36,539 bases of DNA, from NCBI GenBank assembly GCA_903939735.1, contig CAJAIA010000014.1:1-36539 (forward strand), in the 5' to 3' direction. A program made the position numbers and the translations under genes. Below the pieces are notes generated by a model that worked only from the letters and a program-made list of their open reading frames with translations, was not told where the DNA came from and ran no database searches. The stretch comes from an uncultured Ignavibacteria bacterium (lineage in GTDB: Bacteria > Bacteroidota > Ignavibacteria > Kapaibacteriales > Kapaibacteriaceae). Shown here in pieces: positions 3,872-34,122 of this stretch (positions are counted from its first letter, which is position 1; the number at the start of each line of letters is the position of its first letter).

Positions 3872-3899
3872 AGGGGGCCTAGTGGGTTCTTGTTTGAAT

Positions 3900-3942: not shown

Positions 3943-3962
3943 GTAGATCGAAATCGTTGGAA

Positions 3963-10470: not shown

Positions 10471-12882
10471 TTATCGCGCGATCATCAGCGGTGCGCGATA
10501 GATAACACCGCGTGAGTCTGTAACGAACACCGTGTAGATACCAACAGGCAAGGTCGTAACATCTACATGCTCTCGTGTCCCACGCGCCGAGTGATAAAGG
10601 ACGCGCTCGCCGGACGCTGAATAGACTTCGAGTGCTGATATGCCCGATGCGACATTCGATACAACAACAGCATGTGATGCGGGCATTGGAAGCACCGTGA
10701 GCGGACCCTGCATCATTCGATCATCAGCTACCGATACCGCATCGGTGATCGTGATATTCTGTGCTCCCGTTCTTGTGATCGCTGCAAACGCAGCATCAAT
10801 GGATGACACGCGCACATGGTACTCCGTACCAGCAGGCACCGTGAGTGGAACCTTCCACAGGTACCCTTGCGACCGAGCAAGAACACTATCACGGATGAGT
10901 GCAACAACCTGATCGTTCTTCACAAGTTCGATGCGCACAAGACCACTGATGTTCGTCTTCCACGACACTGCATACGCGTTGTCGTACACCCACTGCACAT
11001 CCGTACTAGGACGCGTAACATCGAGGTACGCAGGAGCAACAACAGCGGAATCGATTGCAGACCATACACTCGCGATGTTGTCGGCGAACGCCATTGCACG
11101 CCAGTAGAGCGTGTATGTTGCATCAGTAACGTCTACGTTGACACGATCACTCGTGGCAGTGAGGTCGATCACACCCGACGTAAATGCTGGGTCGCGAGAC
11201 ACCTGAATTCGAATCGAATCAACACGTCCACTTGGCGTCACCTTGAACGCATGTGTTGTGCGCTCAAGAATGCGCTCGCCCTTCACCGGCCAGGTGAGAA
11301 GCGGCGATTGCACGTCTTCAACGCGTGCTTGTGGAATGCCGAAGCAGAACTCGCCGCCAGTGGTTGCCTGCACAACGAGTTCACGTGATGCAGCATCAAA
11401 GCTTGTCGCAAGCGGCTGGAAACGTCCAGTGTCAATAAGCGGACGATGATAGACGACAAGCTTGGTTGGATCAAGCGTAATACCGAGTGTATCGATGTTG
11501 AATCGTACATCTATGCGCTCGTTGCGAATCCCCTCGAGCAACAGCTCAACGCGCGACTGATGGATATGGGGCGAGGCAACCGTCCACTGAGGATTCTTCG
11601 GTGACCATGCAAAACGACGCGCCGTTGTGCGATTGTAGAAGCTTGATTCAAGAGCACGGAACGTGACAGTCGTACCGGTGTAGTGTGTACCGCGCCAGTA
11701 CGCGTATTGCTCACCAGGTAGGACGTCGTTGATCACAACGGTTGCCGATGGACGCCCTGTAGGCCACACTGGGTACTTCGTTGCGCGGTACACAAACATC
11801 TGCTTCGGATACGCAGCTTCGAACACCACACGTCCGGTTGAATCCACTTCGGTGATACCCGGAGCACCATCATTGGCGGCGCTTCCCCACCCTACCACGC
11901 GATTACCATTCGGGAGTGTTTGCAAGCCCCCTTGAATGCTCACGTAATAGTCAGGAACATGTCGATACTCCCATACCATTGTCGCTGTCATAGCACGTTT
12001 GTCAAGACGGTACTCTACACCACGTGAATACTGTGGCGTATGCTGTGTGCCGTTGTCGAAGATCGAGATGTTGCCATTCGGCAAACGACGCGCATCGTGT
12101 TGATAGCTGAAGAACGTTGGTGCGAGTTCCGGATGATCGCCGATAAACGTGAACTGATTGCTCTTGCCACCAAGCTTCCACATCACGTCGCCTGTTGTGC
12201 GATTGACCTTGATCACTTGCGACATGTGGCGCATGGAAATGATCCAGTTGCCGTCGTCATCAATCCAGAGCGAGTTGTTGTGACAGAACCGAATGGCGGG
12301 AGCTGTGAGATCTTCATACGAATCGGTGATTGGTAGATGATCGAGTGCTTTCCACTGCACAACGACATGACCGTCACGATCAATCTCTTGAATGACGGCA
12401 TTCACAACATTCGCTGCCGGGTGACCGCCGGGAACAACCGTACTCATATCGATGGTGACGTCTTCAGCACCGAGAACAACCATGTTGCCGTTTGGCAGCA
12501 TGTGGAAGTCGTGCTGCGTGGTGAGGTAGCCGCGAGCTTGCGACACAAATTCCTGTGCGGCAAGCAACGTATCGACGATGTACACACCTGCTGGGACCGA
12601 CGCACCAGAAAACACCACGAGTTCCGAGTATCCTAGACGTCCATCAGGAAACACCTTGAACTCAAACGGATAATTTGTCACGCGTCCGGTCTTAACCACT
12701 CCCGCATTGACGTTGTACACGCCAAGGAAGGAGCCGTATGGACGTGGCGTGATGCGACAGTTCGGTGCAAGCAGCAGGAAGCCCGGTTCGGGACTGTCGT
12801 TAACCAGCACCTTCAACGGGGCAAGGTCTGGCTGTGCCGATGCAACGGCACATGCTAGAACAAGGGCAAGGACAATGCGCAT
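10471..12882 (-). CDS. Arylsulfotransferase-like (ASST_2) secreted protein with T9SS sorting domain
   Basis: This 803-residue protein has a signal peptide (residues 1-16, ending ASAQ). Residues about 20-480 form an ASST-type propeller with conserved histidine blocks: DFH (His127), CHNNS (His201), MRH (His219) and YQHDARRLPNGN (His262), followed by QGGLQTLPNGN. A fibronectin-like module and a Kre9-like module (VSWKTNISGLVRIEL) precede the C-terminal T9SS type A domain (LPMPAS ... LPVGIYTVFV). Bacterial ASSTs move sulfate between phenolic esters through a histidine intermediate; whether this branch keeps that chemistry is unknown. It is the most divergent of four paralogues here and stands apart from the other three. 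A TAATTCTG box ends 5 bases before the ATG. Confidence 0.85.
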   Translation of the reverse strand: MRIVLALVLACAVASAQPDLAPLKVLVNDSPEPGFLLLAPNCRITPRPYGSFLGVYNVNAGVVKTGRVTNYPFEFKVFPDGRLGYSELVVFSGASVPAGVYIVDTLLAAQEFVSQARGYLTTQHDFHMLPNGNMVVLGAEDVTIDMSTVVPGGHPAANVVNAVIQEIDRDGHVVVQWKALDHLPITDSYEDLTAPAIRFCHNNSLWIDDDGNWIISMRHMSQVIKVNRTTGDVMWKLGGKSNQFTFIGDHPELAPTFFSYQHDARRLPNGNISIFDNGTQHTPQYSRGVEYRLDKRAMTATMVWEYRHVPDYYVSIQGGLQTLPNGNRVVGWGSAANDGAPGITEVDSTGRVVFEAAYPKQMFVYRATKYPVWPTGRPSATVVINDVLPGEQYAYWRGTHYTGTTVTFRALESSFYNRTTARRFAWSPKNPQWTVASPHIHQSRVELLLEGIRNERIDVRFNIDTLGITLDPTKLVVYHRPLIDTGRFQPLATSFDAASRELVVQATTGGEFCFGIPQARVEDVQSPLLTWPVKGERILERTTHAFKVTPSGRVDSIRIQVSRDPAFTSGVIDLTATSDRVNVDVTDATYTLYWRAMAFADNIASVWSAIDSAVVAPAYLDVTRPSTDVQWVYDNAYAVSWKTNISGLVRIELVKNDQVVALIRDSVLARSQGYLWKVPLTVPAGTEYHVRVSSIDAAFAAITRTGAQNITITDAVSVADDRMMQGPLTVLPMPASHAVVVSNVASGISALEVYSASGERVLYHSARGTREHVDVTTLPVGIYTVFVTDSRGVIYRAPLMIAR

Positions 12883-12887
12883 GGGTG

Positions 12888-12895
12888 CAGAATTA
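12888..12895 (-). promoter_or_regulatory. Candidate -7 box of the first ASST-like gene
   Basis: The minus strand reads TAATTCTG, one base off TAnnTTTG, followed by a 5-base spacer and the ATG at 12882. The spacing matches the other boxes in this window. No ribosome site fits between box and start, consistent with leaderless translation. Confidence 0.35.
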
Positions 12896-12972
12896 CGGAA
12901 TTCCTAGATTATGCCTCTGTCTTATCCGTCAGAGCGACACTATCCACAATCGACGACTTGAAAGCCCCCTTG

Positions 12973-13878
12973 ATGATCACGATTATCGGCGCTGGTTCGC
13001 GTCTTGCTTCGGCACTTCTTCCGGTACTTCTCGAGGAGACCGACGCACAGATCCACTGTGTTACGTCCCGCAAGATGGCGATACAGCATCCACGGGTTAC
13101 GGTTGACGTACTCGATGTAACCGATAAGACAGCGCTCAAGGAATCGGTGATGCGTGCGATGCCGTCGACGATCATTAACTGTGCGGCAATCACAAATGTT
13201 GATGCATGCGAGACCGACCGACAACTAGCGTGGGCAATCAACGTAACGCTCGTTGAGAATCTTGCACGCTTGGCGCGTATCGTCGACGCACATCTTGTGC
13301 ACGTATCAACCGACTACGTGTTTGACGGTACAAAGGGTCCGTACACGGAACAGGCCGTACCGAACCCCATTAACTACTACGGCAAGAGCAAACTAGCCGG
13401 TGAGAATGTCTGCACCAGCGGAACGTCGCACTCGTCAATCGTCCGCACGTGCCTTATCTACGGTCCGCCTAGCGACCGACCTGATTTCGTTCAGTGGGTT
13501 ATCAACGCGTGCTCTTCGAAGAAGCCAATACGTGTTGTCAATGATCAGTTTGCCCAGCCAACCTACGTCGAGGATATCGCAGAAGCGCTGCTGCGCATCA
13601 CCTTGCGCAAGCGCACTGGCTTGTATCATGTTGCCGGACCCGATTTCATGAGTCGGTATGATATGGCTGTGCGCATCGCTGAATTCTTCAAAGTAGATCT
13701 GTCGATGATTCAGCCCGTTACATCAGCTGAACTCCAGCAGCCAGCTCGACGTCCGCACCGTAGCGGTCTGGTTTCTCTAAAGGCCGAAACGGACTTGCTC
13801 TTGGACATGCGCGACTTCACCCGTGGTTTATCCACGGTCCGCCATGCGATGTTCTCACCCGATCGAATGATTCCCTAG
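12973..13878 (+). CDS. rfbD: dTDP-4-dehydrorhamnose reductase (SDR family)
   Basis: This 301-residue extended short-chain dehydrogenase uses the ATG at 12973; an in-frame TTG at 12958 would add five residues without purpose. The NAD(P)-binding turn is IGAGSRLAS near the N-terminus. The catalytic set is STDYVFDG (Thr113) and YGKSK (Tyr136, Lys140), and the RPHRSGL block near the C-terminus is typical of RmlD. The enzyme makes dTDP-L-rhamnose for surface polysaccharide. The other rhamnose genes (rfbA, rfbB, rfbC) are not next to it, so it is a lone copy. It could be another SDR reductase, but the motif set favours RmlD. Its stop codon overlaps that of comM in a shared CTAG. Confidence 0.85.
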   Translation: MITIIGAGSRLASALLPVLLEETDAQIHCVTSRKMAIQHPRVTVDVLDVTDKTALKESVMRAMPSTIINCAAITNVDACETDRQLAWAINVTLVENLARLARIVDAHLVHVSTDYVFDGTKGPYTEQAVPNPINYYGKSKLAGENVCTSGTSHSSIVRTCLIYGPPSDRPDFVQWVINACSSKKPIRVVNDQFAQPTYVEDIAEALLRITLRKRTGLYHVAGPDFMSRYDMAVRIAEFFKVDLSMIQPVTSAELQQPARRPHRSGLVSLKAETDLLLDMRDFTRGLSTVRHAMFSPDRMIP

Positions 13879-15413
13879 GCATTCCAGAATGGTCGGTCGA
13901 GGTTGCGGTATTGAATCGCCTCGGCAATGTGCTCCACACTAATGTCGGTGCTCGCGTCAAGATCAGCGATCGTGCGCGATACCTTGCATATGCGATCAAA
14001 TGCCCGTGCCGACAGATGCAGTCGCTGCATCGCTGCTGTGAGCACCGAGCGTGCTCGGTCTGACATCACGCAGAACCGTTCAATGTCTTTCGCCGACATA
14101 TCGGCGTTCTTGAATACTCCCTCGCTCACCACGAATCGTGCTGCCTGACGTTTTCGTGCATCGATGACGCGTCGACGAACATCTTCGGACGTTTCTCCAG
14201 GTGGTGCTTGTGCGAGCTGTTCAACATCAACCGCTGGAACGTCAACGTGAATATCTATCCGGTCTAGAAGAGGTCCGGAGATCTTCGATACATATCGCTG
14301 TACGTCATTCGATGTACAGCGACACTCCCGACGCTGACTGCCGAAGTTGCCGCACGGACAGGGATTCATCGAACTCACGAGCATAAAGTTTGCGGGAAAC
14401 TCCACACTCATCCGCGTACGCGACAGTCGAATGCGGCGCTCTTCAAGGGGCTGACGTAGCACCTCGAGTACGTTGCGCTGGAACTCCGGGACCTCATCAA
14501 GAAACAGCACGCCGTGGTGTGCAAGCGTGATCTCACCGGCGCGGACCACGCCAACGCCTCCTCCCACAAGTGCCGCATTACTGATCGTGTGATGCGGTGC
14601 GCGGAAGGGGCGTTGCGTGACCATTGGCTGTCCCGGGGGAAGAAGACCAGCCACAGAGTGAATCGTTGTTGTTTCGAGAGCTTCATCGAGGGTAAGGGGC
14701 GGAAGGATCGTCGCCAGGCGCTTCGCCAGCATCGTCTTTCCCGCTCCTGGTGGTCCAACCATGATCAGGTTATGTCCGCCCGCAGCGGCTACTTCGAGTG
14801 CACGCTTCACCCCCTGTTGGCCTTTCACATCGGACATATCAACGCGGTGATGCAGGGTGGCCTGCGCAAACACCGCGTCAACGTCGCATACTGCCGACGC
14901 AATCACCGTCAGCCCAGTCAGATGGTCGATTGCTTCCTGAAGCGTTCGAACACCAACGACGTCGACATCCTGCTTGATCGATGCCTCATCGGCGTTGCGT
15001 GCCGGCACAACGAAGCGCTGTTTAGCCCCCTTCATCATCACCATCGGCAACACACCTTGGGTTGGACGAATGCTGCCATCGAAGGCTAACTCTCCGAGTA
15101 GACAGGTCTCGTCGAGATCACGCGCACTAATCATCCCCATTGCATGAATGATGCCAATGGCAATCGGTAGGTCGAACGCGCTTCCCTCTTTGCGGATATC
15201 TGCGGGAGCAAGGTTGACGGTGATGCGTCGAGGCTCCCAACCGTATCCAGCCTGATGAAGCGCGGCTGTGACACGCTCCTTGGATTCTCGCACGGCATTG
15301 TCTGGGAGCCCCACGATCTGAAACGACGGCAAACCCGTCTCGACGGTGATTTCGATCTCCACGCCAAATGCGCCGATTCCTAGGACAGATGCTGAGTGCG
15401 TTTTCGCATACAT
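13875..15413 (-). CDS. comM: Mg-chelatase-like AAA+ ATPase YifB/ComM
   Basis: Starting at the ATG at 15413 (MYAKTHSA), the protein has 512 residues, the usual family length; the open frame continues upstream but only as antisense of the RNase H gene. It has an N-terminal Lon-like fold (SFQIVGLPDNAVRESKERV), then an AAA+ core with Walker A GPPGAGKT (about 219-227), FRAPHHT and Walker B LFLDEVPEF. A CPCG...C.C cysteine cluster follows, and a C-terminal helical domain (LSARAFDRICKVSRTIADL). ComM/YifB is a hexameric helicase that helps integrate incoming DNA during natural transformation. GGAG lies about 10 bases before the ATG. Convergent with rfbD. Confidence 0.95.
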   Translation of the reverse strand: MYAKTHSASVLGIGAFGVEIEITVETGLPSFQIVGLPDNAVRESKERVTAALHQAGYGWEPRRITVNLAPADIRKEGSAFDLPIAIGIIHAMGMISARDLDETCLLGELAFDGSIRPTQGVLPMVMMKGAKQRFVVPARNADEASIKQDVDVVGVRTLQEAIDHLTGLTVIASAVCDVDAVFAQATLHHRVDMSDVKGQQGVKRALEVAAAGGHNLIMVGPPGAGKTMLAKRLATILPPLTLDEALETTTIHSVAGLLPPGQPMVTQRPFRAPHHTISNAALVGGGVGVVRAGEITLAHHGVLFLDEVPEFQRNVLEVLRQPLEERRIRLSRTRMSVEFPANFMLVSSMNPCPCGNFGSQRRECRCTSNDVQRYVSKISGPLLDRIDIHVDVPAVDVEQLAQAPPGETSEDVRRRVIDARKRQAARFVVSEGVFKNADMSAKDIERFCVMSDRARSVLTAAMQRLHLSARAFDRICKVSRTIADLDASTDISVEHIAEAIQYRNLDRPFWNA

Positions 15414-15472
15414 ATACCGCGCTCCGATGAGTGTACCATCACGAGCATCGTGCGCAGGTGAACGTGACACCG

Positions 15473-15480
15473 TAACTTTG
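15473..15480 (+). promoter_or_regulatory. Candidate -7 box of the rnhA-dut-rpiB-bshB1 operon
   Basis: TAACTTTG is a perfect match to the Bacteroidota -7 consensus TAnnTTTG and ends 4 bases before the ATG at 15485. It is the best of five similarly placed boxes in the window. A TTG element around -33 is not evident. Confidence 0.45.
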
Positions 15481-15484
15481 CACC

Positions 15485-16129
15485 ATGGTGCAGGTGAAGA
15501 AACCGAAGTGGTATGTGGTTTGGACCGGACATGTTCCGGGTGTGTATACGTCGTGGGATGTTGCACAGCGCCAGATATCGGGATACCCGAAAGCACAATA
15601 CAAGTCGTATGAGTCAGCCGAAGAAGCCCAGCAGGCCTTCGCTGAGGGTCCGATCGATCTCCTACCGACCACGTCACGTGCGTCGTCTTCACGTCCTCGC
15701 AAGCCGTCCTTTGATCGAAGCCGCGTTGTGCTTCCAAGCATCTCCGTTGATGCGGCGTGCAACATGACCACCGGAGTGATGGAGTATCGTGGTGTGGATA
15801 CCGAGACCGAAGCTGAGTTCTTCCGAATGGGCCCGTACGAGGACTGTTCGAATAACTTGGGTGAGTTTCTTGCGATCGTACATGCTCTCGCGCACTGCAA
15901 GAAGCACGACATCGCACTCCCGATCTATTCGGATTCTCGCACAGCGATTGCATGGGTGCGAAACCGTCATGCCAAGACAACCGTCGAACGAACGCCGAAG
16001 AACGCACGTGTGTTCGAGCTCATCAAACGCGCCGAAGAATGGCTGAGCACAAACAGCTACGTAAACCATATTCTCAAGTGGGAAACAGAACAGTGGGGCG
16101 AGAATCCTGCTGATTTCGGAAGGAAGTAA
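15485..16129 (+). CDS. rnhA: Ribonuclease H with N-terminal viroplasmin domain
   Basis: The protein has 214 residues. Residues 6-50 (KWYVVWTGHVPGVY ... YKSYESAEEAQQAF) are the caulimovirus viroplasmin-type hybrid-binding domain found in eukaryotic RNase H1 and some Bacteroidota. After a Ser/Arg-rich linker, the RNase H fold keeps the four catalytic acids: Asp89 (SVDAAC), Glu127 (NNLGEFLA), Asp150 (YSDSRTA) and Asp210 (ENPADFGRK). It cleaves RNA in RNA-DNA hybrids such as R-loops and primers. It is the first gene of a four-gene operon with dut one base downstream. The promoter box almost touches the ATG and no ribosome site is visible, unlike the genes behind it. Confidence 0.93.
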   Translation: MVQVKKPKWYVVWTGHVPGVYTSWDVAQRQISGYPKAQYKSYESAEEAQQAFAEGPIDLLPTTSRASSSRPRKPSFDRSRVVLPSISVDAACNMTTGVMEYRGVDTETEAEFFRMGPYEDCSNNLGEFLAIVHALAHCKKHDIALPIYSDSRTAIAWVRNRHAKTTVERTPKNARVFELIKRAEEWLSTNSYVNHILKWETEQWGENPADFGRK

Positions 16130-16130
16130 G

Positions 16131-16577
16131 ATGACAATTGACATTGTGCGAATGGAGCATGCATCAGACCTCCCTCTGCCTGCCTATGCTACAAGCGGCT
16201 CAGCTGGCATGGACGTCCATGCTGCGGTTGATGAGCCCACGGTTCTCGCAGCTGGAGCAATCATGCTCGTACCAACGGGTCTGTGCGTAGCGATTCCGCA
16301 GGGCTTTGAGATCCAAGTGCGCTCTCGCAGCGGTCTTGCAGCTAAGCACGGGGTGTTCGCATTGAATGCTCCAGGCACGATCGACAGTGATTATCGTGGC
16401 GAGATCAAGGTGATCCTTGCGAACTTCTCGAAGGAAGATGCAATCATCGAACGCGGAATGCGGATCGCACAGTTGGTAGTTGCTCGACACGAGCAATGCA
16501 CATGGAATGTTGTGTCGGAACTCAGTGAAACACAACGTGGTGAAGGTGGATTTGGTAGCACAGGAGTACACCCATGA
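16131..16577 (+). CDS. dut: Deoxyuridine 5'-triphosphate nucleotidohydrolase (dUTPase)
   Basis: This 148-residue protein has all five trimeric dUTPase motifs in order: SAGMDVHA, VRSRSGLAAKHG, LNAPGTIDSDYRGE, GMRIAQLV and the C-terminal RGEGGFGSTG lid. It hydrolyses dUTP to dUMP and pyrophosphate, keeping uracil out of DNA and feeding dTMP synthesis. It starts one base after the RNase H stop, with a GGAAGGA ribosome site upstream, and its own stop overlaps the rpiB start in ATGA. Pairing with RNase H is consistent with a DNA-maintenance operon. Confidence 0.96.
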   Translation: MTIDIVRMEHASDLPLPAYATSGSAGMDVHAAVDEPTVLAAGAIMLVPTGLCVAIPQGFEIQVRSRSGLAAKHGVFALNAPGTIDSDYRGEIKVILANFSKEDAIIERGMRIAQLVVARHEQCTWNVVSELSETQRGEGGFGSTGVHP

Positions 16578-17017
16578 ACATCGCACTCGGCGCGGACCAC
16601 GGAGGGTATGCGTACAAAGAAGCGATCAAGGAAATGTTGATTGCAGACGGACATACTGTTCTCGATGTCGGCACTGATTCAACGGAGTCGGTTGATTATC
16701 CCGACTACGGCACGAAGGCGGCACATCTTGTTCGCGACGGACAAGCCGAAGCGGGCGTGTTGGTGTGCGGCTCTGGCATTGGTATTTCCATCGCTGCTAA
16801 CAAGGTGCGCTCAATTCGTGCAGCCAACTGCACGAGTGTTGAAATGGCACAATTAGCACGCATGCACAACAATGCAAACATGGTTGCCGTTGGCGAACGT
16901 CTGATGTCGGTTGATCTTGCACGCGACATCGTGCGCGCGTTCTTGTCGACACCATTCGAAGGTGGACGTCACGAGCGTCGCGTAGAGAAGATCGATTCGT
17001 TAGGAGACATCCAATGA
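16574..17017 (+). CDS. rpiB: Ribose-5-phosphate isomerase B
   Basis: This 147-residue RpiB/LacA-type sugar isomerase interconverts ribose-5-phosphate and ribulose-5-phosphate in the pentose phosphate pathway. Key features are GADHGG (Asp8, His9), the active-site Cys65 in VLVCGSGIGISIAANK, and His98 in MHNNANM. The length is normal. An AGGAG ribosome site precedes the ATG, which overlaps the dut stop by four bases; the end overlaps bshB1 in the same way. Confidence 0.95.
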   Translation: MNIALGADHGGYAYKEAIKEMLIADGHTVLDVGTDSTESVDYPDYGTKAAHLVRDGQAEAGVLVCGSGIGISIAANKVRSIRAANCTSVEMAQLARMHNNANMVAVGERLMSVDLARDIVRAFLSTPFEGGRHERRVEKIDSLGDIQ

Positions 17018-18189: not shown

Positions 18190-18232
18190 GTTGAACCCAT
18201 AATGATCGCCGCAAATTCGGCATTTTCCGCGT

Positions 18233-19135: not shown

Positions 19136-19170
19136 CCTATGTTTGTAGCGCAGCACAAGGGGTGACACTT

Positions 19171-20562: not shown

Positions 20563-20567
20563 GGCCT

Positions 20568-21698: not shown

Positions 21699-21704
21699 AA
21701 ACGT

Positions 21705-23858
21705 TTACGGTGTATACCGAAGGTTCACCGTTGCGAATACATTTCGTGGTAGGCCAGGTTCAATAAACGGAACCCCACCACGAGTGACGTCGGGATTGAT
21801 CCAAGCCGACGCCATGTATGACGCATTGAAGACATTATCAGCTCGACCAATAATGTCGATTGAGAGGTGCTGAGGAAGTACACCTATGCGGATCCCTGCA
21901 GCCGCTGAAAGTACCGTCCAGCCATCAACAACAATCGTATTTGCATCATCAGCGTAGTACGAGCTCAGCGTACGAGATTCGATCTCCGCAAACCAACCGT
22001 CGTGTTCCGGTACGTCATACCGCAATCTCACAGTTGCCGACGCACGTGGAATACCGGATTGCTCATTCCCTGCGTACGATATTGTGCGACCGGAGAGCTG
22101 CTGCGAAATGTATCCTGAATCGATTGTGTAGTCAAGGAACGTTGTCGACATCAGCGATCCGCTGAGTGCGACAGTCAGGCCTGTAGCCGCTTGTATTGTT
22201 GCGCCAAGTTCAGCGCCTATTCTTCGACTTGCTCCGACGGTTGTGAAGAATGCACCCGAGTTATACGGGGCGATATCGTTTGTGATGTCGATCATGTACG
22301 CTGCTGCATCGAAGACAACATTCGAGCTGATGTTCCCCTTCACACCAAGTTCATACGTCGTACTGATGATAGGCGAAAGCAGAGGATTAATCGCGCGCGT
22401 CGGCACTGTTGCGCCGATGAAGGCTGGTGGATCCGTCTCATTACCTGCGGGAACTTCAATGCCCCCTCCAAGACTTGCATACACACTCACATCGCTACCA
22501 ATGCGGTAATTCACACCGAGCTTGGGAATCAGGCGGGAGAATGTGACGGATGTATCTGCTGCTGGATCGATGAAGTCTTGATTCGCGTACTGAACGGCAT
22601 CGTACCGAAGGCCAGCCACGATGCTCAGTGCACCAAGCATCACTTCGTCCTGCACGAAGGCACCTACATTGCTTGCACCTTCGCGTTTGTTCTGACGCAG
22701 CGTTGTACCACGACCAGCCGTAGTTGGGTCGAGATTGTAGAAGAGAATAGAACCATCTTGAACTTGAAGATCAGTACCGACAAGGATCTTGTTGTACATC
22801 GACGATGAGAGTTGTTGCGATGCATGCAGCACGGCGTTGCCGCCAACATGGTAGCGGTCGAAGTCGCGCCATGTGTTTCGCTCGGAACGAGCGAGCTTCT
22901 TGGTTTGCACGAAACCCATCGCAGACAATCCCACAGACGAGGAGAACTCGTGTTCAATCGTTGTGCCGATGCGAATCAGCGCATTATCGCGACGCTCATC
23001 ACGTTGGACAAAGCTTGGCTTGTACACCAGCGTATCACGTTGTGCCTGCTGTGGATCGGAGAGGAACTGATCTCGTGTTAGCGGACCAGGTATGTGGAAT
23101 TGATTGCGACCACCTGTCACAAACAGCTTCACCGTGGTTGATTCCGATGGTCGAGTCACCACGCCCAGCGTTCCAAGCACCTGCGACCCTCTCGATTGCT
23201 CTCGCCATCCATCGAATGCCGTATTCGTGATGGATGCATAGATCTGTCCATTGCCAAGGGGCGAATTGGCAAGCAATGACTGACGAAGGAGACCGAAGCT
23301 TCCCACGGTCGTACCGACATCAATAAACGCAGACTGTTCCTTGGGAACTGTTGAAACCGAGACAATACCACCTGACGCATTGCCCCATAACGTGGATGCA
23401 TTTGATCGAATGACCTCGATCGATGAAGCGTGAAACGTGTTGATGAGATCGAACGACGTACGTCCATCTGGTTCGGTCTCTGGAATACCGTCGGTATAGA
23501 ATCGTATTCCTCGTGATGTCCCAGCATTCGATCGCTGTCCAGCGCCTCTTGCGCCAAAACCACGTATCTGGATGCGGGCATCCGTGCCGCCAGAGCGCGA
23601 CTGTCCAATTACACCTGGAACGAGTGTCAGAACGCCATCAATTCCATGTCCACGTTGCGTTTGAAGCACCATGCGAGGGACAACGGTAACGGCGAGTGGA
23701 ATCTCAAGCAGGTTTTCTTCATCCCTGATTGCTGACACTACAACTTCGCGTGATTGATATGTGCTTATGCGTGTTGTGTCTGGAGATTGCAGGCGCGCAT
23801 GTGCGTGCATCGTTACGAGAGTAACACTCAAAAGCGTGCTGAGGACAATCTGTAGCAT
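21705..23858 (-). CDS. TonB-dependent outer-membrane receptor
   Basis: The 717-residue protein has a signal peptide (about 1-22) and a TonB-box-like stretch near REVVVSAIRDEE. The plug domain runs to about residue 165 (IQIRGFGARGAGQ, IRFYTDGIPETEPDGRT, IEVIRSNASTLWGNASGGIVSVST). A 22-strand barrel follows, ending NLRYTP. It lacks the N-terminal carboxypeptidase-like domain of SusC transporters and looks like siderophore or metal-complex receptors of the FecA type, but the ligand cannot be named. No SusD partner is present. It is divergent from an ASST-like gene across 92 bases. A TACCTTCG stretch (minus strand, 23895-23902) is a possible -7 box. Confidence 0.92.
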   Translation of the reverse strand: MLQIVLSTLLSVTLVTMHAHARLQSPDTTRISTYQSREVVVSAIRDEENLLEIPLAVTVVPRMVLQTQRGHGIDGVLTLVPGVIGQSRSGGTDARIQIRGFGARGAGQRSNAGTSRGIRFYTDGIPETEPDGRTSFDLINTFHASSIEVIRSNASTLWGNASGGIVSVSTVPKEQSAFIDVGTTVGSFGLLRQSLLANSPLGNGQIYASITNTAFDGWREQSRGSQVLGTLGVVTRPSESTTVKLFVTGGRNQFHIPGPLTRDQFLSDPQQAQRDTLVYKPSFVQRDERRDNALIRIGTTIEHEFSSSVGLSAMGFVQTKKLARSERNTWRDFDRYHVGGNAVLHASQQLSSSMYNKILVGTDLQVQDGSILFYNLDPTTAGRGTTLRQNKREGASNVGAFVQDEVMLGALSIVAGLRYDAVQYANQDFIDPAADTSVTFSRLIPKLGVNYRIGSDVSVYASLGGGIEVPAGNETDPPAFIGATVPTRAINPLLSPIISTTYELGVKGNISSNVVFDAAAYMIDITNDIAPYNSGAFFTTVGASRRIGAELGATIQAATGLTVALSGSLMSTTFLDYTIDSGYISQQLSGRTISYAGNEQSGIPRASATVRLRYDVPEHDGWFAEIESRTLSSYYADDANTIVVDGWTVLSAAAGIRIGVLPQHLSIDIIGRADNVFNASYMASAWINPDVTRGGVPFIEPGLPRNVFATVNLRYTP

Positions 23859-23950
23859 GTAATGCTCTGGACATACGTCGTTAGAAGGGACTACGAAGGT
23901 AACATTTCGGACCTCAATGGGTTATTAGGCTCGTTGACACCTCTTCACAT

Positions 23951-26900: not shown

Positions 26901-27181
26901 GTAAGGCCGTCGTATCAGTCAACGATGAAACCTCTATCGGTTCATCCGTAGTAGTGCGTCGAGAAGGATCACGTGTAATCGTGAACGCTCCTTCGTTCGC
27001 GAACAGGGTATCGAGCGTTCAAGTGTTTGATCTTCAGGGACGTTTGCTTGCGCAGTCCATGGCCAACACAGATGGCTTGTTCGTCGTCGACGTTCCATTG
27101 CTAGGAGTACCTCGCACCCTGTTCCTTCGAGTTGCGTCAGACGAAGGAGCCATCTGGACATCAACCTTCGTGTGGAATTAA
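23951..27181 (+). CDS. Arylsulfotransferase-like secreted protein with five fibronectin-III-like repeats
   Basis: This 1076-residue protein has a signal peptide (1-25, ending SASAQ). The ASST-like propeller spans about 26-510 and carries the shared histidine pattern: DFHEG (His120), IHVNS (His200), CRHTDEIIK (His218) and FSHQHSA (His261, His263) with LFDNGN. Next come five modules of about 90 residues, each with a TSYDVQVS-like strand and a YWRVRG-like strand: fibronectin type III repeats. A divergent T9SS-type C-terminal domain (VQVFDLQGRLLAQ) closes the protein without the usual PNP motif. It is probably displayed on the cell surface. The chain ends one base into the start of the next paralogue (TAATG). 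Sulfotransferase chemistry is a family-based guess. Confidence 0.85.
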   Translation: MKLLNIITRILLGILFLWSFSASAQTSFRNLTFSILRNPEPGYYLVEPNASDSVGFVDNSGRSISKTFVGIHSNVQVYNDTFLTHFVSTANGDPFFLRRDRFLNVIDTLRPVNGYFADFHEGKVWSDSSYVVLATENRLMDLSGIVTGGSPSATIIGAVIQERRFSDGALLFEWKSLDHIPVTDATDDIKLTDNLIDYIHVNSVAKDTDGNLIVSCRHTDEIIKIKKSSGTVLWRLGGSSSKGNQFTIVNDTYNNFSGFSHQHSALRTKSGNILLFDNGNLRPAPNYARVVEYEIDTIAMTATRVWTWQPPLGVIATSQGSVQELDGGNILIGWGAGSDLYVAHEVRRDGTIEAEIKNESGSGLIPYRVSKMRLGLTGIRKSIATTGTHTFSDGDSTTHVRLSLTKATDTTSIVIERHHYAPHAINFVGEAVCGVLPLRWTLRIREPQNVNGSIVFDLGSIPAIQFPELAHLYHRPVEGQGAFTRLVGTYSDAQKTFTTTGLTNGEYLVSYADCLEPSPVEPFHQAVEVSTTPKLTWSSAVAATSYDVQVSTSATFAPLLFSQTTANLDVILPTVQESTTLFWRVRKRTAAVVGPWSAPYRFTVVMGIPQLLSPVMEDDTVAVLETSEFRWIPGVGVPKSRLQIIVAASKVVVLDTIVDQPVFIPGSKLRPNTFYTWSVRGWADNVNGRPSTSETFITAVAAPRLRGPGANVVGVPPIKTTFIWDSVAGATSYRLIIKKAGDTSVVAIHDVNAPTFVVRNLPSSTKLSWTVRGSNVYGSGPYATPSLFTTASSSNLPAPKTVSPRGGVIVDSTSISLAWSDVYGATLYDVQVSTSPTFTSDVTSRFDLYGTQTKLGPLRSATAYYWRVLGRSDFATGTWSDTAAFVTAAPPGKGLSPLFPLLGTVDVPVQGSVRYSTSSTYTSYRLELSKSPTFDPLVSTFTSDHGTCAYRDLERETTYFWRVRGSRDGQPSDVGTAAYFTTERKAVVSVNDETSIGSSVVVRREGSRVIVNAPSFANRVSSVQVFDLQGRLLAQSMANTDGLFVVDVPLLGVPRTLFLRVASDEGAIWTSTFVWN

Positions 27182-29247
27182 TGCTCTCGCTCTTCCGTTC
27201 AGTGATCGCCTGCTTTGTACTTGCCTGTGGTATATGTGGCCTTGCGCACGCGCAGAATGAATTTCAGGATCTCGACGTCAAGGTCAACGGAATCCCCGGA
27301 GCGTCGTACTACCTTGTTGCACCCAATGCGCGAGATTCAATTGGTTTCGTCGATATGTCGGGACGTGCTGTGTTTCGTCGAGGCGTAGGATTACATACTA
27401 ACCTCGCTGCGTACGGAACGAAGAAGCTTTCGGTGTTCACAGGAAACTTTGGCTACTTCGCCTACGTGATCTTCGATAGTACGCTCACTCCTATTGACAC
27501 CATGACAGTTACGCAGCAGTACGTGACTGATTCACATGAGGGCATGCTGTGGACAGATTCAACGTTCATGATGCTTGGGTTGGAGTTTCGACCATTTGAC
27601 ATGTCGGGTATTGTTCCTGGCGGACAGCCAAATGCCTCGCTGATGGTCACGGTGATTCAAGAACGCCATCTCGTAACAGATAGCGTGCTGTTTGAATGGA
27701 ATGCATTCGGTCGTATCCCTGTCACGGACGCTACAAGCAACATCGAACTGCGGCAGCGAACGATCGACTACATCCACGCGAACTCGATTGTTCGTGATCG
27801 AGATAGCAACCTAATTGTGTCATGTCGACATCTTGATGAAATCATCAAGATTCGTCGTACCGATGGTTCGATTATGTGGCGCATGGGCGGCGTTGGTTCG
27901 AAGAACCGCGAGTTCACGTTCGTGAACGATGAGCACGAGGGTGTGACAGGCTTTTCGCATCAGCACAGCGCAATTGTTACGAAGACCGGTACAATCATGC
28001 TGTTTGACAACGGGAACCTCAAGCCGAATCAGCGCTCTCGGGTTGTAGAGTATGCGCTTGACACGGTTGCAATGACAGCAACACGTGTGTGGTCGTATAC
28101 ACCAGAGCCTCCGCTGTATTCACCGTCACAGGGCAGTATTGAGGTGCTACCGAACGGCAACATTCTGATAGGCTACAGTGCAACCAACGATCAACGCATC
28201 GCGGAAGAAGTTGATCGCAATGGTTCGATTGTCGTGCAACTCCGTCGGACGTCAGATGTCCCACTGCAGTCATATCGTGTGCGAGGAACATCTCTCGGCT
28301 GTACAGCTATAGATCGAGCAATTACGAAGCCTGGACGCGAGGAGTTTGCCGACGCAGATAGTTCAACATGGGTGTGTCTCGATGTCAGCAAGGTTAGTGG
28401 TTCACATCGAACCCGTATTGAACGACATCACTATCGACCACATGCATGGCAGGTCGATGATGCACAAGTGTGTGGTCCGCTTTCCCTGCGTTGGACTATC
28501 CGGGTATTGCCAGCGATAGGTATTGATGGCTCATTACGATTCGACGTCGATGAGATAGCTTCGCCGGAGAAGGCGATACTCTATCATCGAAGCAATGAGG
28601 GTAGCGGACGTTTCAAGCGGTACATAACGCAGTATGATGCGGACGCGAGAGAAATCATACTTGATACGATCATTGATGGCGAGTTCGCGATCGCATATCA
28701 GGAATGCGTTGATCCTATTCCTGTGTTCCCTATTCGGGGTGCTACGAGTGTACCATCAACAACGTCGATCCGCTGGTCTGAATCGCCGGACGCAACCTCG
28801 TATGATGTGGAAGTGTCATTCCAAGAAGACGTTAGCATGCCGTATGCTACGTTCACAACGCAGCGACGTGACACAGTACTCCGTGGATTACCCCCTTCCA
28901 CCACCGCATACTGGCGCGTCCGTAAGCGCGTTGAAAACGAACAAGGTGCGTGGTCTGCAACATCATCATTCACCACGGCCGGAACTGTGCACGTGTCGGA
29001 AGGCAATCTCGAGTCAGATCAATGTGTTGTCTGGCAACATGGAGATCGTCTCAACATTGCGTACCCCGGAGTTCCTGTGAAGGATGTACTGGTGTATGAT
29101 CTATTAGGCACGCTTGTCGCGTGGAGGTCCTTCGCTACCGAGTCATCGATGTATGAGATAGCCTGCGATCAACTACCGAGAGTTGGTGTAGTGATAGTTC
29201 GCGGAGTTGATGGCAGTATTCAACGACGAACAGTCGTTCGGGACTAA
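27181..29247 (+). CDS. Arylsulfotransferase-like secreted protein, short form with one fibronectin-III-like repeat
   Basis: From the ATG at 27181 the protein has 688 residues; an in-frame GTG at 27172 would place the start inside the previous gene. Signal peptide: residues 1-25 (GLAHAQ). The propeller keeps DSHEG (His119), IHANS (His199), CRHLDEIIK (His217) and FSHQHSA (His260, His262). Only one fibronectin-III-like module (about 510-605) is left between propeller and C-terminal domain, against five in its two neighbours. The C-terminal domain (VLVYDLLGTLVAWRS) is T9SS-like but divergent. The stop/start overlap TAATG couples it to the preceding paralogue. It converges on the propeller lipoprotein gene with three bases of overlap. 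Confidence 0.84.
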   Translation: MLSLFRSVIACFVLACGICGLAHAQNEFQDLDVKVNGIPGASYYLVAPNARDSIGFVDMSGRAVFRRGVGLHTNLAAYGTKKLSVFTGNFGYFAYVIFDSTLTPIDTMTVTQQYVTDSHEGMLWTDSTFMMLGLEFRPFDMSGIVPGGQPNASLMVTVIQERHLVTDSVLFEWNAFGRIPVTDATSNIELRQRTIDYIHANSIVRDRDSNLIVSCRHLDEIIKIRRTDGSIMWRMGGVGSKNREFTFVNDEHEGVTGFSHQHSAIVTKTGTIMLFDNGNLKPNQRSRVVEYALDTVAMTATRVWSYTPEPPLYSPSQGSIEVLPNGNILIGYSATNDQRIAEEVDRNGSIVVQLRRTSDVPLQSYRVRGTSLGCTAIDRAITKPGREEFADADSSTWVCLDVSKVSGSHRTRIERHHYRPHAWQVDDAQVCGPLSLRWTIRVLPAIGIDGSLRFDVDEIASPEKAILYHRSNEGSGRFKRYITQYDADAREIILDTIIDGEFAIAYQECVDPIPVFPIRGATSVPSTTSIRWSESPDATSYDVEVSFQEDVSMPYATFTTQRRDTVLRGLPPSTTAYWRVRKRVENEQGAWSATSSFTTAGTVHVSEGNLESDQCVVWQHGDRLNIAYPGVPVKDVLVYDLLGTLVAWRSFATESSMYEIACDQLPRVGVVIVRGVDGSIQRRTVVRD

Positions 29248-30896
29248 TTAGCGCGCCGACGCTGCTGCATCCACTTCGGCATTGGACTCACGTACATGTC
29301 GCCATCATCTCCAATGACATACACATTGTCGGCGTCACAGTATACTGTGCGAAGCACCATTGCTTTAGGAATGGTCGTGAGTTCCCAGGTTGTTCCGCCA
29401 TCTGTTGACGTAAACAGACCAGGGTAACCTGCAGCGAGCGCCACGCCGTTATGTGTAGTTGCGTCGTTAACACGTACTTGGTAATCAGCCTTTACACCCG
29501 GAGAGAAGAGTCCGAGCTGTCCGGAGTGATCAACAGTGTACGTCCCTGACGAAGCAAACACGAGCATAAGAGAATCAAGTCGGGTGACCGATTGAATGTT
29601 CTCATCGCGCAGCACCTCCATGAACACTGTAAACGATCGGGCTGAATCCTTGCTTACGTACAGTCCAGATGCCGTGCACGCATACAAGGTCGAATCGAAG
29701 ACACGAAGGCTCGTGAGCTCTGATTGCCCGAAGCTCTTTGAGCGCACCTGCCACGATGCACCTGTATCTGCAGAGAGCAGCATTGTGCCATCTGCTAGCC
29801 CCATAACAATGTTGCTGCCAAGCGTCGTGACGACATACTCGGAGCTCGTCGGAGCAGTAGAGGAAACAATACGTAGTCCATCACCATTTGCGTTGAAGGC
29901 GAGGGCACCTTTTAATCGCGAGCTCACAATCCAGGAGTCCCCGAGTTTCGAAACCGATTGATGGAGCGCGAGATTAATACCATCGGACAGAGAACGCAGG
30001 ATGTTACTGCCATACGGCACACTCAGTACGGCATGTTCCCGCGAGGCCACGTAGAGGGCACGGTCGTTTACAGACAACGCATGAACATCGAGCGCACCCT
30101 CAATCCTGTCAATCAGCATCTGCTCCCAGGTAGTTGTGCCGAGGATGATGCGAAAGACCCCGCCTAATGACAGTTTCGTTCCAACGTACAGCGTGTCGCC
30201 TCGTAGAGCCAATGCCGACAGAGCTTGACCGTTTAGAATGCGTGGAGTGTAGTGCTCCGTTGAAGCTGTTGAGAGTCGATACACAATCACATCATTTGCT
30301 CGGGTTGCTAGCACGATCACTGAATCGCTCGAGACCACGGGTCTTGTGTCAGCAAGGTCTGGTAGCGTGATAGACCGTGTAACCCCACTCCAATGCACAT
30401 AACGGAGAACTGAATCTGTGTGCGTGATTGTCATTGAAGGACGTGGCCAACAACGTGTGTTGAGGTTGTCGCTCGAGAGTGGTTCAGCATTTCTACCGAA
30501 CCCACGGATAGGTTGTATTCCGGTACGTTGCACAACACGCCATTGCAGTCCATGATCTGTTGTGCGATACACGGTGCCATGCCCTGATCCTGCATAAATT
30601 GTGTCGCCGTGAGCTTCGACTGCAGTTATGTTTTTGTGCGACAGCGGCTCAGCCAGACTTCCCCATGTTGCACCACTGTTTGAGCTGCGGAAGATGTCTT
30701 GGTTCGTCACAAGCACAAGGGTGGTGTCGGCGCGAAGAATTGCATTGACACCGAACATGATGCTTTTGCCGAGTTTTACGAACGCAAACGTGTCGCTCTG
30801 ATCCCTCGAAATCGGCTGACGACGAGGAACAGATGTCGCGCAACCCGAGAGTATTCCCACGAATGCGATTACAACCATGATGACGGAACGGAACAT
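29244..30896 (-). CDS. Lipoprotein with BNR/Vps10-type propeller repeats
   Basis: From the ATG at 30896 the protein has 550 residues. The start MFRSVIMVVIAFVG leads to a lipobox LSGC (Cys19), so it is lipid-anchored. The body repeats the BNR/sortilin pattern of an Asp-box-like S.D.G.TW turn: SSNSGATWG, TTDHGLQWR, SADTGASWQ, SKDSARSFT, STDGGTTWE. Such propellers bind glycans or proteins, or are photosystem-assembly-like factors; none of these roles can be chosen here. No T9SS domain is present. The open frame extends 23 codons upstream, antisense to the next gene, but without purpose. A GATATTTG box ends 4 bases before the ATG. The start codon overlaps that of the divergent ASST-like gene. Confidence 0.78.
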   Translation of the reverse strand: MFRSVIMVVIAFVGILSGCATSVPRRQPISRDQSDTFAFVKLGKSIMFGVNAILRADTTLVLVTNQDIFRSSNSGATWGSLAEPLSHKNITAVEAHGDTIYAGSGHGTVYRTTDHGLQWRVVQRTGIQPIRGFGRNAEPLSSDNLNTRCWPRPSMTITHTDSVLRYVHWSGVTRSITLPDLADTRPVVSSDSVIVLATRANDVIVYRLSTASTEHYTPRILNGQALSALALRGDTLYVGTKLSLGGVFRIILGTTTWEQMLIDRIEGALDVHALSVNDRALYVASREHAVLSVPYGSNILRSLSDGINLALHQSVSKLGDSWIVSSRLKGALAFNANGDGLRIVSSTAPTSSEYVVTTLGSNIVMGLADGTMLLSADTGASWQVRSKSFGQSELTSLRVFDSTLYACTASGLYVSKDSARSFTVFMEVLRDENIQSVTRLDSLMLVFASSGTYTVDHSGQLGLFSPGVKADYQVRVNDATTHNGVALAAGYPGLFTSTDGGTTWELTTIPKAMVLRTVYCDADNVYVIGDDGDMYVSPMPKWMQQRRRAN

Positions 30897-33800
30897 GCGG
30901 CAAATATCGACAACTCTGCAGTGGCAGCTTCTTACGATGCTTGCAATCGTTGGAGTGATGCTCACGCCTCTGTGCTCCGCCCAGGTAGCCTTTCGCGACC
31001 TCGACGTCTCCGTGTTGAAGAATCCTGCACCCGGTTACTATTTCATAGCTCCTAACTCCATGGATTCGATTTCCATGTTGGATCATGCTGGCAAGAACAT
31101 GTTCAAACGACGTGTTGGCCCACACGCAAACGTTCTGCCGTACAAGGGAAAGTGGCTTACACACTTCGCGACTATTGGAAACACACCTGTGTTCATTCGT
31201 CGGGACGTCAACCTTAATCCTATCGACACCCTGCGAACTGTCAATGGAGTACAAACCGACTTCCATGAATGTCGCATCATATCCGACACGAGCTACATCA
31301 TTCTTGGGATTCGTGAGGATACGGTAGACCTCTCGTCGATACCCGGTGGCAGACCGCGTGCAATCGTATGGAACAACGTTATCCAGGAGCGCACCTTCTC
31401 TGGACGCACCCTCGTCGAGTGGCGGTCGTTAGATCACATTCCAGTGGCAGACGCGATCGATAGTGTGGAGGTCAACACACCAGTAGTCGACTACATCCAT
31501 ATCAACTCGGTGGTAATCGACCGCGACGGAAACTATCTCATCTCGTGCCGCCATACAGACGAAGTCATTAAGGTTAACCGCTCAACAGGCGCTGTAATGT
31601 GGCGTCTTGGTGGATCGCTCTCGAAGGGCAATCAGTTTCAATGGCTCAACGATTCGACAGGGGGCTTTCGAGGGTTTAGCCATCAGCATTCAGCAATTCG
31701 TACAGCACGTGGGACAATCCTGTTGTTCGATAACGGCAACTTCAAGCCGGGTGATAGAGCATCGCGTGTCGTTGAGTACGAGTTGGATGAACAGGCGAAG
31801 ACCGTACGAAAGGTGTTCGAGTTCATACCATCCCCTAGCATCTATGCAGCTACAATGGGCAGTGTTCAGGAGTTGCCGAATGGCAACATCGTAATTGGCT
31901 GGGGATCTGGTTCAAATCGAACCGTTGCACACGAGATCGATCGCACTGGAACGGTGCAGGTGCGAATTGATAACCCAACGCAGAATGGATTCGTTGCCTA
32001 TCGCGTTGTGAAGGCCGTCTATGCCATGACTGGCATAGAGCAGGTACTTACCGCCCCTGGCACAACGGTGTTTTCTGACGCAGACAGTACGACACATGTG
32101 TCGTTCATTGCTTCCCGCGTATCAGACACGACACGCGTAACAGTCGAACGCCACAACTACCAGCCGCATGCAATCTCATTTGCCGACACAACGTATTGTA
32201 GTGTCGTCCCAATGCGATGGACCGTACGAGCAAGCGATACATCGAATCTTGCTGGTACACTTAGTATAGCGGTACGTGATGTACCAGGGGTGTTGGTGCC
32301 ATCCAAGGCGCGTCTCTTTGCGCGTTCGCGTGAAGGACGGGGTCCGTTCACACGCGTTACCACGACGTACGACTCTGTAAGTGGCAGTTTGAGTACATCG
32401 GCGCTTCGGTATGGCGAGTTTCTGATTGCCTTTGCCGATTGCACAGTTCCATCGCAGATCTATCCTTCGAACGGCGCAGTCGAGATTCCTACGACTGTCC
32501 AATTGCGTTGGTCACCAGCCCTACGAACCGATGGCTATCAGGTTGAAGTGTCGAAGTCGCCGTCGTTCAGCAATCCCGATCGATACGTGGTTGGCGATGA
32601 GGATACAACGCTGCAGAGCCTATCTGATTTCACAGCGTATCATTGGCGCGTTCGTGCAGTCCTTCCCAATGCAACCTATAGTCAATGGTCGGCCCCATGG
32701 AGCTTCCGGACACAGCTGCCTGTGCCGACGGTCGTTTCTCCAGTTCTTCGTACCGACACGATTGCTACACAGCTCCCTGTACAGTTAGTGTGGCGGCGCA
32801 CGCCAGCAGCATCGAAGTATCGATACCGTGTAATTCCTGTTGACCGTCGGAGTGATAGTGTTTCATCTGTCACGAGCGATACTGTAGCAACGGGATTGAC
32901 GACACTACTGCCTAACACGTGGTATGAGTGGTCGGTGCGTGCGATTTCAGATTCAGGCATTGTCGGTCGGTGGTCGATACCGGCGCGGTTCATCACATCG
33001 CCGCGTGCGCCAATGCTCCGAACACCGTCGCAGGACGCTGAGGATGTAGCGACGGATCGTCCTCGTTTTGAATGGCAATCGGTTGACAGTGCTCTCCGAT
33101 ACATCGTGAGCATTCGACGTGCGAACGACGGAACAGTTATCATCCTTGATTCCACTGCATCGACGACGTTTACGCCTGATACACTTCCGATGGCTACACG
33201 ATGCGTATGGACAGTCCGTGCTGTCGGACGGTACGGAGTTGGTCCGCACTCGCCAGCATGGGGCTTTACTACATCGTCAGCGTTTGTGCTATCAGCGCCT
33301 GTGACAATCGCACCAAAGAATATCGACCAAGTTGACACCTCTATGCTATCGATGACGTGGAGTGGTGTTGAAGGTGCGACATCATATGATGTGCAGCTAA
33401 CCTCTGGACGTTCCTTTGCTAACCCAGATATCGAACTGCTTGGACTGGCCAATACGTTTTGCGATGTGCAACAGATACGTCCCGGCACCACGTACAAGTG
33501 GCGCGTCATTGGGTATTCCGATACTGCAGTTGGAAGATGGTCTGATACAGCATCATTCACATCACGTCCTCGATTCGAGCAACGTCTTGTTCCTCTCACA
33601 CCGGAACGAGATGCTACCGATGTGCCACTGCGTGGTGTGTTGCGTTTCACCACATCCCCAGCCTACGTTGAGTACGAAGCGCAGCTCGCCAAGGATCCGT
33701 ACTTCACGATTCTCGATCACACCTTCCGTACTTCTGTCGACACCGTTGAGTATTACGGACTCGAGCCCGGTACACGCTACTATTGGCGTGTCCGAGGTTT

Positions 33801-34122
33801 TCTCGGTGGCGATCGATTTGATCAAGGCGAAGCATCATCATTCACAACGACCACGTCTGTTTCCGTGCATCGCGACATAGACGACGAACAAGGTGTCGTT
33901 GTCACTGCGACCGATAAGGGGATGGTGATTGAATTTCGTCGAATCGGACAGTATCTGATCAATGTCCGCGATCTCCGAGGACGACTTGTAAGCACATTAT
34001 CAGTTGACAAGTGGTGCCGGACCGTATATCTGCCTACGGAAGGACATGCCAGAGGGTGCTATCTCCTTGAAATATATAGAGATAGCAACACCGCAGGTGA
34101 TAATCAGGTGATTTGTCGCTAG
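30895..34122 (+). CDS. Arylsulfotransferase-like secreted protein with five fibronectin-III-like repeats (third cluster copy)
   Basis: From the ATG at 30895 the protein has 1075 residues; in-frame ATGs at 30877 and 30880 are alternatives that would extend into the divergent gene. The signal peptide ends LCSAQ near residue 30. The propeller (about 31-515) carries DFHEC (His124), IHINS (His202), CRHTDEVIK (His220) and FSHQHSA (His263, His265). Five fibronectin-III-like modules follow, each with a YWRVRG/YEWSVRA-like strand, then a divergent C-terminal domain (INVRDLRGRLVSTL) presumed to be a T9SS signal. Its architecture copies the protein at 23951. Unlike its two relatives it is separated by a gene on the other strand, so it has its own promoter, which I could not place. 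Confidence 0.84.
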   Translation: MRQISTTLQWQLLTMLAIVGVMLTPLCSAQVAFRDLDVSVLKNPAPGYYFIAPNSMDSISMLDHAGKNMFKRRVGPHANVLPYKGKWLTHFATIGNTPVFIRRDVNLNPIDTLRTVNGVQTDFHECRIISDTSYIILGIREDTVDLSSIPGGRPRAIVWNNVIQERTFSGRTLVEWRSLDHIPVADAIDSVEVNTPVVDYIHINSVVIDRDGNYLISCRHTDEVIKVNRSTGAVMWRLGGSLSKGNQFQWLNDSTGGFRGFSHQHSAIRTARGTILLFDNGNFKPGDRASRVVEYELDEQAKTVRKVFEFIPSPSIYAATMGSVQELPNGNIVIGWGSGSNRTVAHEIDRTGTVQVRIDNPTQNGFVAYRVVKAVYAMTGIEQVLTAPGTTVFSDADSTTHVSFIASRVSDTTRVTVERHNYQPHAISFADTTYCSVVPMRWTVRASDTSNLAGTLSIAVRDVPGVLVPSKARLFARSREGRGPFTRVTTTYDSVSGSLSTSALRYGEFLIAFADCTVPSQIYPSNGAVEIPTTVQLRWSPALRTDGYQVEVSKSPSFSNPDRYVVGDEDTTLQSLSDFTAYHWRVRAVLPNATYSQWSAPWSFRTQLPVPTVVSPVLRTDTIATQLPVQLVWRRTPAASKYRYRVIPVDRRSDSVSSVTSDTVATGLTTLLPNTWYEWSVRAISDSGIVGRWSIPARFITSPRAPMLRTPSQDAEDVATDRPRFEWQSVDSALRYIVSIRRANDGTVIILDSTASTTFTPDTLPMATRCVWTVRAVGRYGVGPHSPAWGFTTSSAFVLSAPVTIAPKNIDQVDTSMLSMTWSGVEGATSYDVQLTSGRSFANPDIELLGLANTFCDVQQIRPGTTYKWRVIGYSDTAVGRWSDTASFTSRPRFEQRLVPLTPERDATDVPLRGVLRFTTSPAYVEYEAQLAKDPYFTILDHTFRTSVDTVEYYGLEPGTRYYWRVRGFLGGDRFDQGEASSFTTTTSVSVHRDIDDEQGVVVTATDKGMVIEFRRIGQYLINVRDLRGRLVSTLSVDKWCRTVYLPTEGHARGCYLLEIYRDSNTAGDNQVICR
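30901..30908 (-). promoter_or_regulatory. Candidate -7 box of the propeller lipoprotein gene
   Basis: The minus strand reads GATATTTG, one base off TAnnTTTG, and lies 4 bases before the ATG at 30896. It sits inside the first codons of the divergent ASST-like gene. The geometry matches four other boxes in the window. Confidence 0.3.

Follow-up and report, generated by a model that had tools for sequence, protein, structure and literature searches.

The stretch of DNA analyzed here, contig CAJAIA010000014.1 of assembly GCA_903939735.1 (36,539 nucleotides, hereafter the window), comes from an uncultured Ignavibacteria bacterium and contains four genes whose products, P0001 to P0004, are assigned with strong support to the arylsulfotransferase (ASST) propellers with a conserved active site (Table 1). 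All four exceed the curated cut-offs of both PF05935 (E 1.4e-25 to 1.6e-33) and PF14269 (E 5.6e-24 to 1.9e-28), which was the check proposed in the first-pass annotation of this DNA, and none of the four matched the NCBIfam ASST models. The clustering of three of the genes between a TonB-dependent receptor and an Ig-like protein, also noticed in that annotation, is borne out by Pfam matches and by the comparison of loci. Taken together with the conservation of individual alignment columns described below, the Pfam scores rule out a chance resemblance to ASSTs.

The four proteins share an N-terminus that resembles a Sec signal ending in Ala-x-Ala-Gln or similar, as judged by eye from the sequence. 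In P0001, this is followed by the propeller (approximately residues 21-371), a beta domain to approximately residue 510 and a type IX tail at residues 730-801; from the length, two Ig/fn3-like domains, with weak Pfam matches, probably lie between the beta domain and the tail. P0004 comprises a propeller (residues 39-380), a beta domain to approximately residue 510, approximately five fn3-like repeats and a seven-stranded tail domain at approximately residues 1005-1081. P0002 is similarly built, with approximately five fn3-like repeats (estimated from its length and its likeness to P0004, the C-terminal length being equal) and a diverged tail, and P0003 has a propeller, a beta domain, a single fn3-like repeat and a diverged tail. 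Alternative ATG codons at 27181 (P0003) and 30895 (P0004) are the starts given in the first-pass annotation. The start of the Asp-box gene likely lies near 30896.

Table 1. Positions of the ASST genes and their neighbors in the window (clade B is defined in the text)
Feature	Position	Strand	Matches (E) or residues
P0001, ASST outside clade B, 803 aa	10471-12882	-	PF05935 1.6e-33, PF14269 1.9e-28
TonB-dependent receptor, PqqU/YncD-like	21705-23858	-	near full-length match PqqU 9c4o, YncD 6v81
P0002, clade B ASST, 1076 aa	23951-27181	+	PF05935 1.4e-25, PF14269 2e-24
P0003, clade B ASST, 691 aa	27172-29247	+	PF14269 2.9e-28, PF05935 3.1e-28
Asp-box (BNR) propeller protein	29244-30965	-	DUF6242 2.5e-12, Sortilin-Vps10 3.2e-10
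P0004, clade B ASST, 1081 aa	30877-34122	+	PF05935 8.6e-27, fn3 1.7e-17
Catalytic propeller of P0004	30982-32025	+	H130, H208, N210, R225, H271
Ig-repeat and choice-of-anchor D protein, cut by contig end	34284-36539	+	PF13927 1.6e-38; NF012200 over cut-off

Active site, fold and distribution of the propellers

The motifs D[FS]H, H.N, RH and QH[SD]A, which had been listed from the sequence in the first-pass annotation, are present in all four aligned proteins. In the alignment to Escherichia coli AssT, D[FS]H corresponds to His252, H.N to His356 and Asn358, RH to Arg374 and QH[SD]A to His436 (residue numbers counted by hand on the printed alignment, in which the H436N mutant 4p04 has Asn at the place of His436). 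The stretch around His252 is a weak match on its own (9.6 bits). The aligned active-site residues converge in one pocket in AssT, and from the alignment with AssT and Cpz4, a sulfotransferase of caprazamycin synthesis in Streptomyces, the conserved histidines of the window proteins would do the same. The active site of AssT consists of His252, His356, Asn358, Arg374, His436 and Thr501, of which His436 becomes sulfated (PMC13426309, from an excerpt, as wherever it is cited below). The signature, which had been regarded as a histidine motif of these paralogues, is thus not new but aligns with the known ASST active site. The [MC]RH element held up in part, as its Arg belongs to the catalytic set; the His after it lies outside the listed set and, being His in 75 of the 99 homologues counted below and Asn in Cpz4, is ruled out as catalytic.

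Conservation was assessed in a chosen sample of homologues: 117 open reading frames matched, 16 were removed (10 duplicates, four cut and two weak) and, from the remaining 101, two that match part of the propeller only (L034 and L117) were set aside for residue counts. The equivalents of His252, His356, Asn358, Arg374 and His436 are found in all four window proteins, and 94 of the 99 homologues with a whole propeller retain the full set. In the numbering of P0004, the counts of homologues retaining each residue are 98 for His130, 97 for His208, 99 for Asn210, 97 for Arg225 and 99 for His271. These five columns rank within the top 16 of 342 by conservation, for which the probability with five random columns is 1.2e-7; the commonest residue of the median propeller column occupies 46%. 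As a separate observation, a distant ASST of the window's genome (L079:3838-5436) carries a His where the active site otherwise has Arg and is among the five exceptions.

A profile of 98 related propellers, compared with PDB sequences, gave matches below E 0.01 solely to two enzymes and their variants, namely Cpz4 (9kf4, E 3e-62) and E. coli AssT (3elq, E 7.9e-23). The structural comparison agrees with this order. A model of P0004 residues 31-525, built from 34 sequences, has a predicted local distance difference test (pLDDT) score of 92.4 and a predicted template modeling (pTM) score of 0.91; Foldseek ranked Cpz4 and AssT first, and the VIA-align Z-scores were 41.9 (9kf6), 40.9 (9kf4) and 31.5-32.1 (AssT entries), the next family being TolB at 21.7. 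Because the model aligns to Cpz4 and AssT ahead of other propellers, the ASST fold is assigned to P0004, and by homology to it P0001, P0002 and P0003 are predicted to share that fold.

Cpz4 (PDB 9KF4 and 9KF6) is accordingly the nearest solved relative both by profile and by structure (338 residues aligned at 3.1 Å with 28% identity to the P0004 model). The His, His/Asn, Arg and His positions agree and, like three of the window proteins, Cpz4 has a Gln at the place of Thr501. At 472 residues, however, its chain is too short to include a long stalk and tail like those of the window proteins; the latter are moreover multi-copy and set among other genes. E. coli AssT (PDB 3ELQ and others) has the propeller in common, and the listed active-site residues agree at five of six positions, but it is periplasmic and a beta-sandwich precedes its propeller (PMC13426309). 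In the window proteins, by contrast, the propeller match begins at residue 21-39, with no preceding beta-sandwich, an extra beta domain follows the propeller, and Thr501 is not kept; they therefore fall outside the AssT-type (enterobacterial) subgroup. The AST of Bacteroides vulgatus (BvAST; PMC13426309), an ASST from another member of the Bacteroidota in NCBI naming, is likened here by description only.

The first-pass annotation had described four paralogues. Four genes do lie in the window, and the genome as a whole holds seven ASST genes above the PF05935 cut-off and an eighth weak match. Nor do the four form one tight family: in a tree of 98 propellers (rooted at the midpoint for drawing only), 30 rows set apart from the rest by a fully supported branch constitute clade B, which includes the three clustered window genes and L078:6406-8442 of the window's genome, whereas P0001 and L078:2027-4498 fall opposite. 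This branch rules out four close paralogues from a single recent duplication. Orthologues of P0001 in the loci L009-L016 are 58-97% identical, and their RmlD and cytochrome c neighbors are kept where the loci reach. A 456-aa protein (window 7680-9050) with no Pfam match at 1e-3 was also seen close to the genes for cytochrome c and the P0001-type ASST in several Kapabacteria-type loci. The nearest named records to the window genes are Kapabacteria-type metagenome-assembled genomes. One record, CAMCXP010000011.1 (L009 and L018), carries ASST genes 85-97% identical to those of the window and groups with Kapabacteria; its title, Melioribacter roseus P3M-2, looks wrong.

More widely, PF05935 matched in 94 of 197 genomes of the class sample (92 above the cut-off), with tandem groups and a maximum of at least nine copies per genome, and in 89 of 296 genomes of the phylum sample (86 above the cut-off); the copy numbers are lower bounds, taken from the best nine candidates per genome in the class sample and the best six in the phylum sample. 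A similar propeller at E<=1e-20 was found in 16 of the 61 genomes of the order sample, and a plasmid search gave partial matches of <60% identity in 17 records.

Probable type IX export and proposed function

The genome of the window contains type IX secretion parts above their cut-offs, namely SprA (894.6 bits, with neighbors), PorU (822.8 bits) and PorV (316.4 bits). It yields 124 matches to the tail model TIGR04183 at E<=1, approximately 80 of them above the cut-off (hand count), four only with in-frame neighbors; 13 of 14 control genomes match at E<=1, one above the cut-off. One tail of this kind that passes the Pfam cut-off was noted at window 1934-5810, where a PhoX-like protein adjoins a di-haem MauG-type peroxidase gene.

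Type IX C-termini had been proposed for all four ASSTs. For P0001 the proposal stands, since its tail scores 26.7 bits with TIGR04183 against a cut-off of 23, although it stays below that of PF18962 (20.1 against 27); a tail profile built from 28 other proteins of the same genome, among them the weak eighth ASST match (tail L060), also detects it (E 3.3e-6). For P0002, P0003 and P0004, the relationship comes from profile-profile comparison: 17 diverged tails aligned by hhalign with the genome tail profile at 95.5% probability (P 1.5e-8), and the segment just before them at 0.6%. In addition, the tail of P0004 was modeled with seven strands at middling confidence (a second P0004 model has a pLDDT of 83.8), and type IX tails are seven-stranded sandwiches (PMC11285876, from an excerpt). 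A Foldseek search with the C-terminal half of P0004 matched long fn3/Ig arrays and gave nothing informative on the tail. Among the 94 of the 101 homologues that have a complete C-terminus, 63 carry a tail at i-E<1e-3, a threshold reached by 0 of 1880 scrambled tails and 0 of 19 AssT-type proteins belonging to the phylum's other classes. Export by the type IX system is thus likely for P0001 and probable for P0002, P0003 and P0004, and would place the four proteins at the cell surface. The known cargo proteins RgpB and HBP35 are comparable in the P0001 tail, which lies above a curated cut-off, and in the seven-stranded tail model of P0004; they differ from the window proteins in that the cargo here is a sulfotransferase and three tails have diverged.

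The four proteins are probably aryl sulfotransferases independent of 3′-phosphoadenosine 5′-phosphosulfate (PAPS), exported by the type IX system and displayed on, or released from, the cell surface, with the Ig/fn3 domains serving as a stalk. Sulfate transfer is predicted by homology to AssT and would follow a ping-pong course, from aryl sulfate through sulfo-histidine to hydroxyl. The six-bladed propeller would move the sulfuryl group from an external phenolic sulfate onto the central His (His271 in P0004), with His130, His208, Asn210 and Arg225 holding the group while the phenol leaves, and the group would then pass to a hydroxyl acceptor, with a sugar or another aromatic alcohol more likely than a protein. 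PF00884, PF13469 and PF00685 gave no match in the window's genome, and the same searches were positive in 10, two and two of 14 control genomes, respectively. These results give no sign of an internal PAPS-made donor or of a sulfatase of these families, so the donor may be external to the cell. Cpz4 prefers sugar hydroxyls (PMC13426309), and because the window ASSTs lie near Cpz4, a glycan or glycoside may be taken as a first guess for the acceptor, possible but short of probable.

Several observations weigh against this reading. With respect to catalysis, which is itself predicted, one of the five residues is absent from 5 of the 99 homologues, and Thr501 is replaced by Gln in three window proteins and by Met in P0004 (54 of the 99 homologues have Met here and 24 have Gln). 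The replacement of Thr501, together with the multiple copies, the fn3 stalks and the Ig-repeat neighbor that recall adhesins, would suit proteins that have kept the ASST fold but act as a non-catalytic binding or adhesion head on the stalk; such a role is unlikely, given that a binding head would not need the observed conservation of the five catalytic columns. With respect to export, the tails of P0002, P0003 and P0004 match neither TIGR04183 nor the Pfam tail families, lack the usual PNP start and score E 3.2, 2.5 and 0.015, respectively, with the genome tail profile, and 31 of the 94 complete homologues, two of them with masked ends, have no clear tail. Both AssT and the Klebsiella enzyme reside in the periplasm (PMC13426309), and the missing tail matches would likewise agree with active ASSTs that remain in the periplasm, the diverged tails of the clustered three having lost type IX signaling. 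This is unlikely in view of the profile-profile match of those tails, the seven strands modeled in P0004 and the curated tail on P0001. Finally, the absence of three Pfam families leaves room for other kinds of sulfatase or sulfotransferase, and the sugar acceptor is suggested solely by nearness to Cpz4.

A shared neighborhood of clade B genes

The Asp-box gene is wedged, on the opposite strand, between clade B ASST genes. Homologues of it were found in 11 distinct loci, the window among them, and each adjoins a clade B ASST; a weak match (61 bits, L152) has none beside it. Strong matches (>600 bits) are confined to seven loci in six of the 61 genomes of the order, all seven adjoining an ASST, and the next matches lie below 90 bits. 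These six genomes carry the ASSTs scoring highest with the propeller profile, and both the Asp-box gene and such an ASST are missing from five further genomes of the family. The link is one-way, since, among the 16 genomes of the order in which such propellers were found, 10 lack a strong Asp-box match, and no Asp-box neighbor was found within the fetched stretch at the clade B ASSTs L078:6406-8442, L088, L093, L029 and L011:1613-4927. Against known proteins, the Asp-box family matches just stretches of xyloglucanases, sortilin, Ycf48 and similar propellers. A lipobox (LSGC in the window) stands at the signal end in the window, L018 and L025; because three further pattern matches are unconvincing and 5 of the 11 rows have no lipobox, the protein was not accepted as a lipoprotein in general.

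The Ig protein lies beside clade B ASSTs in eight loci (the window, L018, L019, L025, L027, L084, L087 and L095), and a homologous TonB receptor in five (the window, L019, L020, L024 and L095). The receptor was not seen on the fetched side of L026/L089 with L151 or of L084 with L149, and L031 and several other loci end too soon to be judged. It matches PqqU (E 6.3e-47) and YncD (E 5.7e-47), the next match being at 1.1e-7. NCBIfam PqqU is the best model at 205.6 bits, against an equivalog cut-off of 1200, so that the receptor is called PqqU-like only; its ligand is possibly a quinone or another small aromatic.

As a special case of surface-exposed, active sulfotransferases, and within the probability given to that reading rather than beside it, the clade B ASSTs might strip sulfate from external aromatic sulfates in place of the seemingly absent sulfatases, the freed aromatic entering via the PqqU-like receptor. 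The recurrence of the receptor beside clade B ASSTs, its likeness to PqqU and the lack of a PF00884 match would fit such scavenging. It is nevertheless rather unlikely, as the receptor was not seen in the loci named above, its ligand assignment is putative and an ASST requires an acceptor. The presence of the three clustered ASSTs in a gene group common to relatives hints at an undescribed extracellular system for handling sulfate. It is tempting to speculate, although the proposal is unlikely to hold in full, that clade B ASSTs work together with the Asp-box propeller, the Ig protein and the PqqU-like receptor as a single machine on the surface of some Kapabacteria. Such a machine would exchange sulfate between aromatic sulfates outside the cell and an acceptor either captured or belonging to the surface, coupled to the uptake of aromatics or quinones, without PAPS and with the environment as donor, in cells where searches for the three Pfam families above gave neither a sulfatase nor a PAPS sulfotransferase.

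The family, its fold and its chemistry are already known. Among the open-licence PMC papers listed, no title or abstract start described an exported ASST of this kind, consistent with the earlier statement that no such family had been functionally described; as far as this literature was searched, the export, the stalk, the copy number and the neighborhood are new. For most ASSTs, neither the natural acceptor nor the role is known (PMC13426309). A class in which some genomes carry at least nine copies, and in which most of those checked have export tails, allows the question of the role of ASSTs to be posed outside the cell, and the partner genes offer a concrete hypothesis on what these enzymes serve. 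If active, the window proteins would be surface sulfotransferases that draw on environmental donors, with relevance to the sulfation of surface glycans, the turnover of phenolic sulfates and the search for catalysts.

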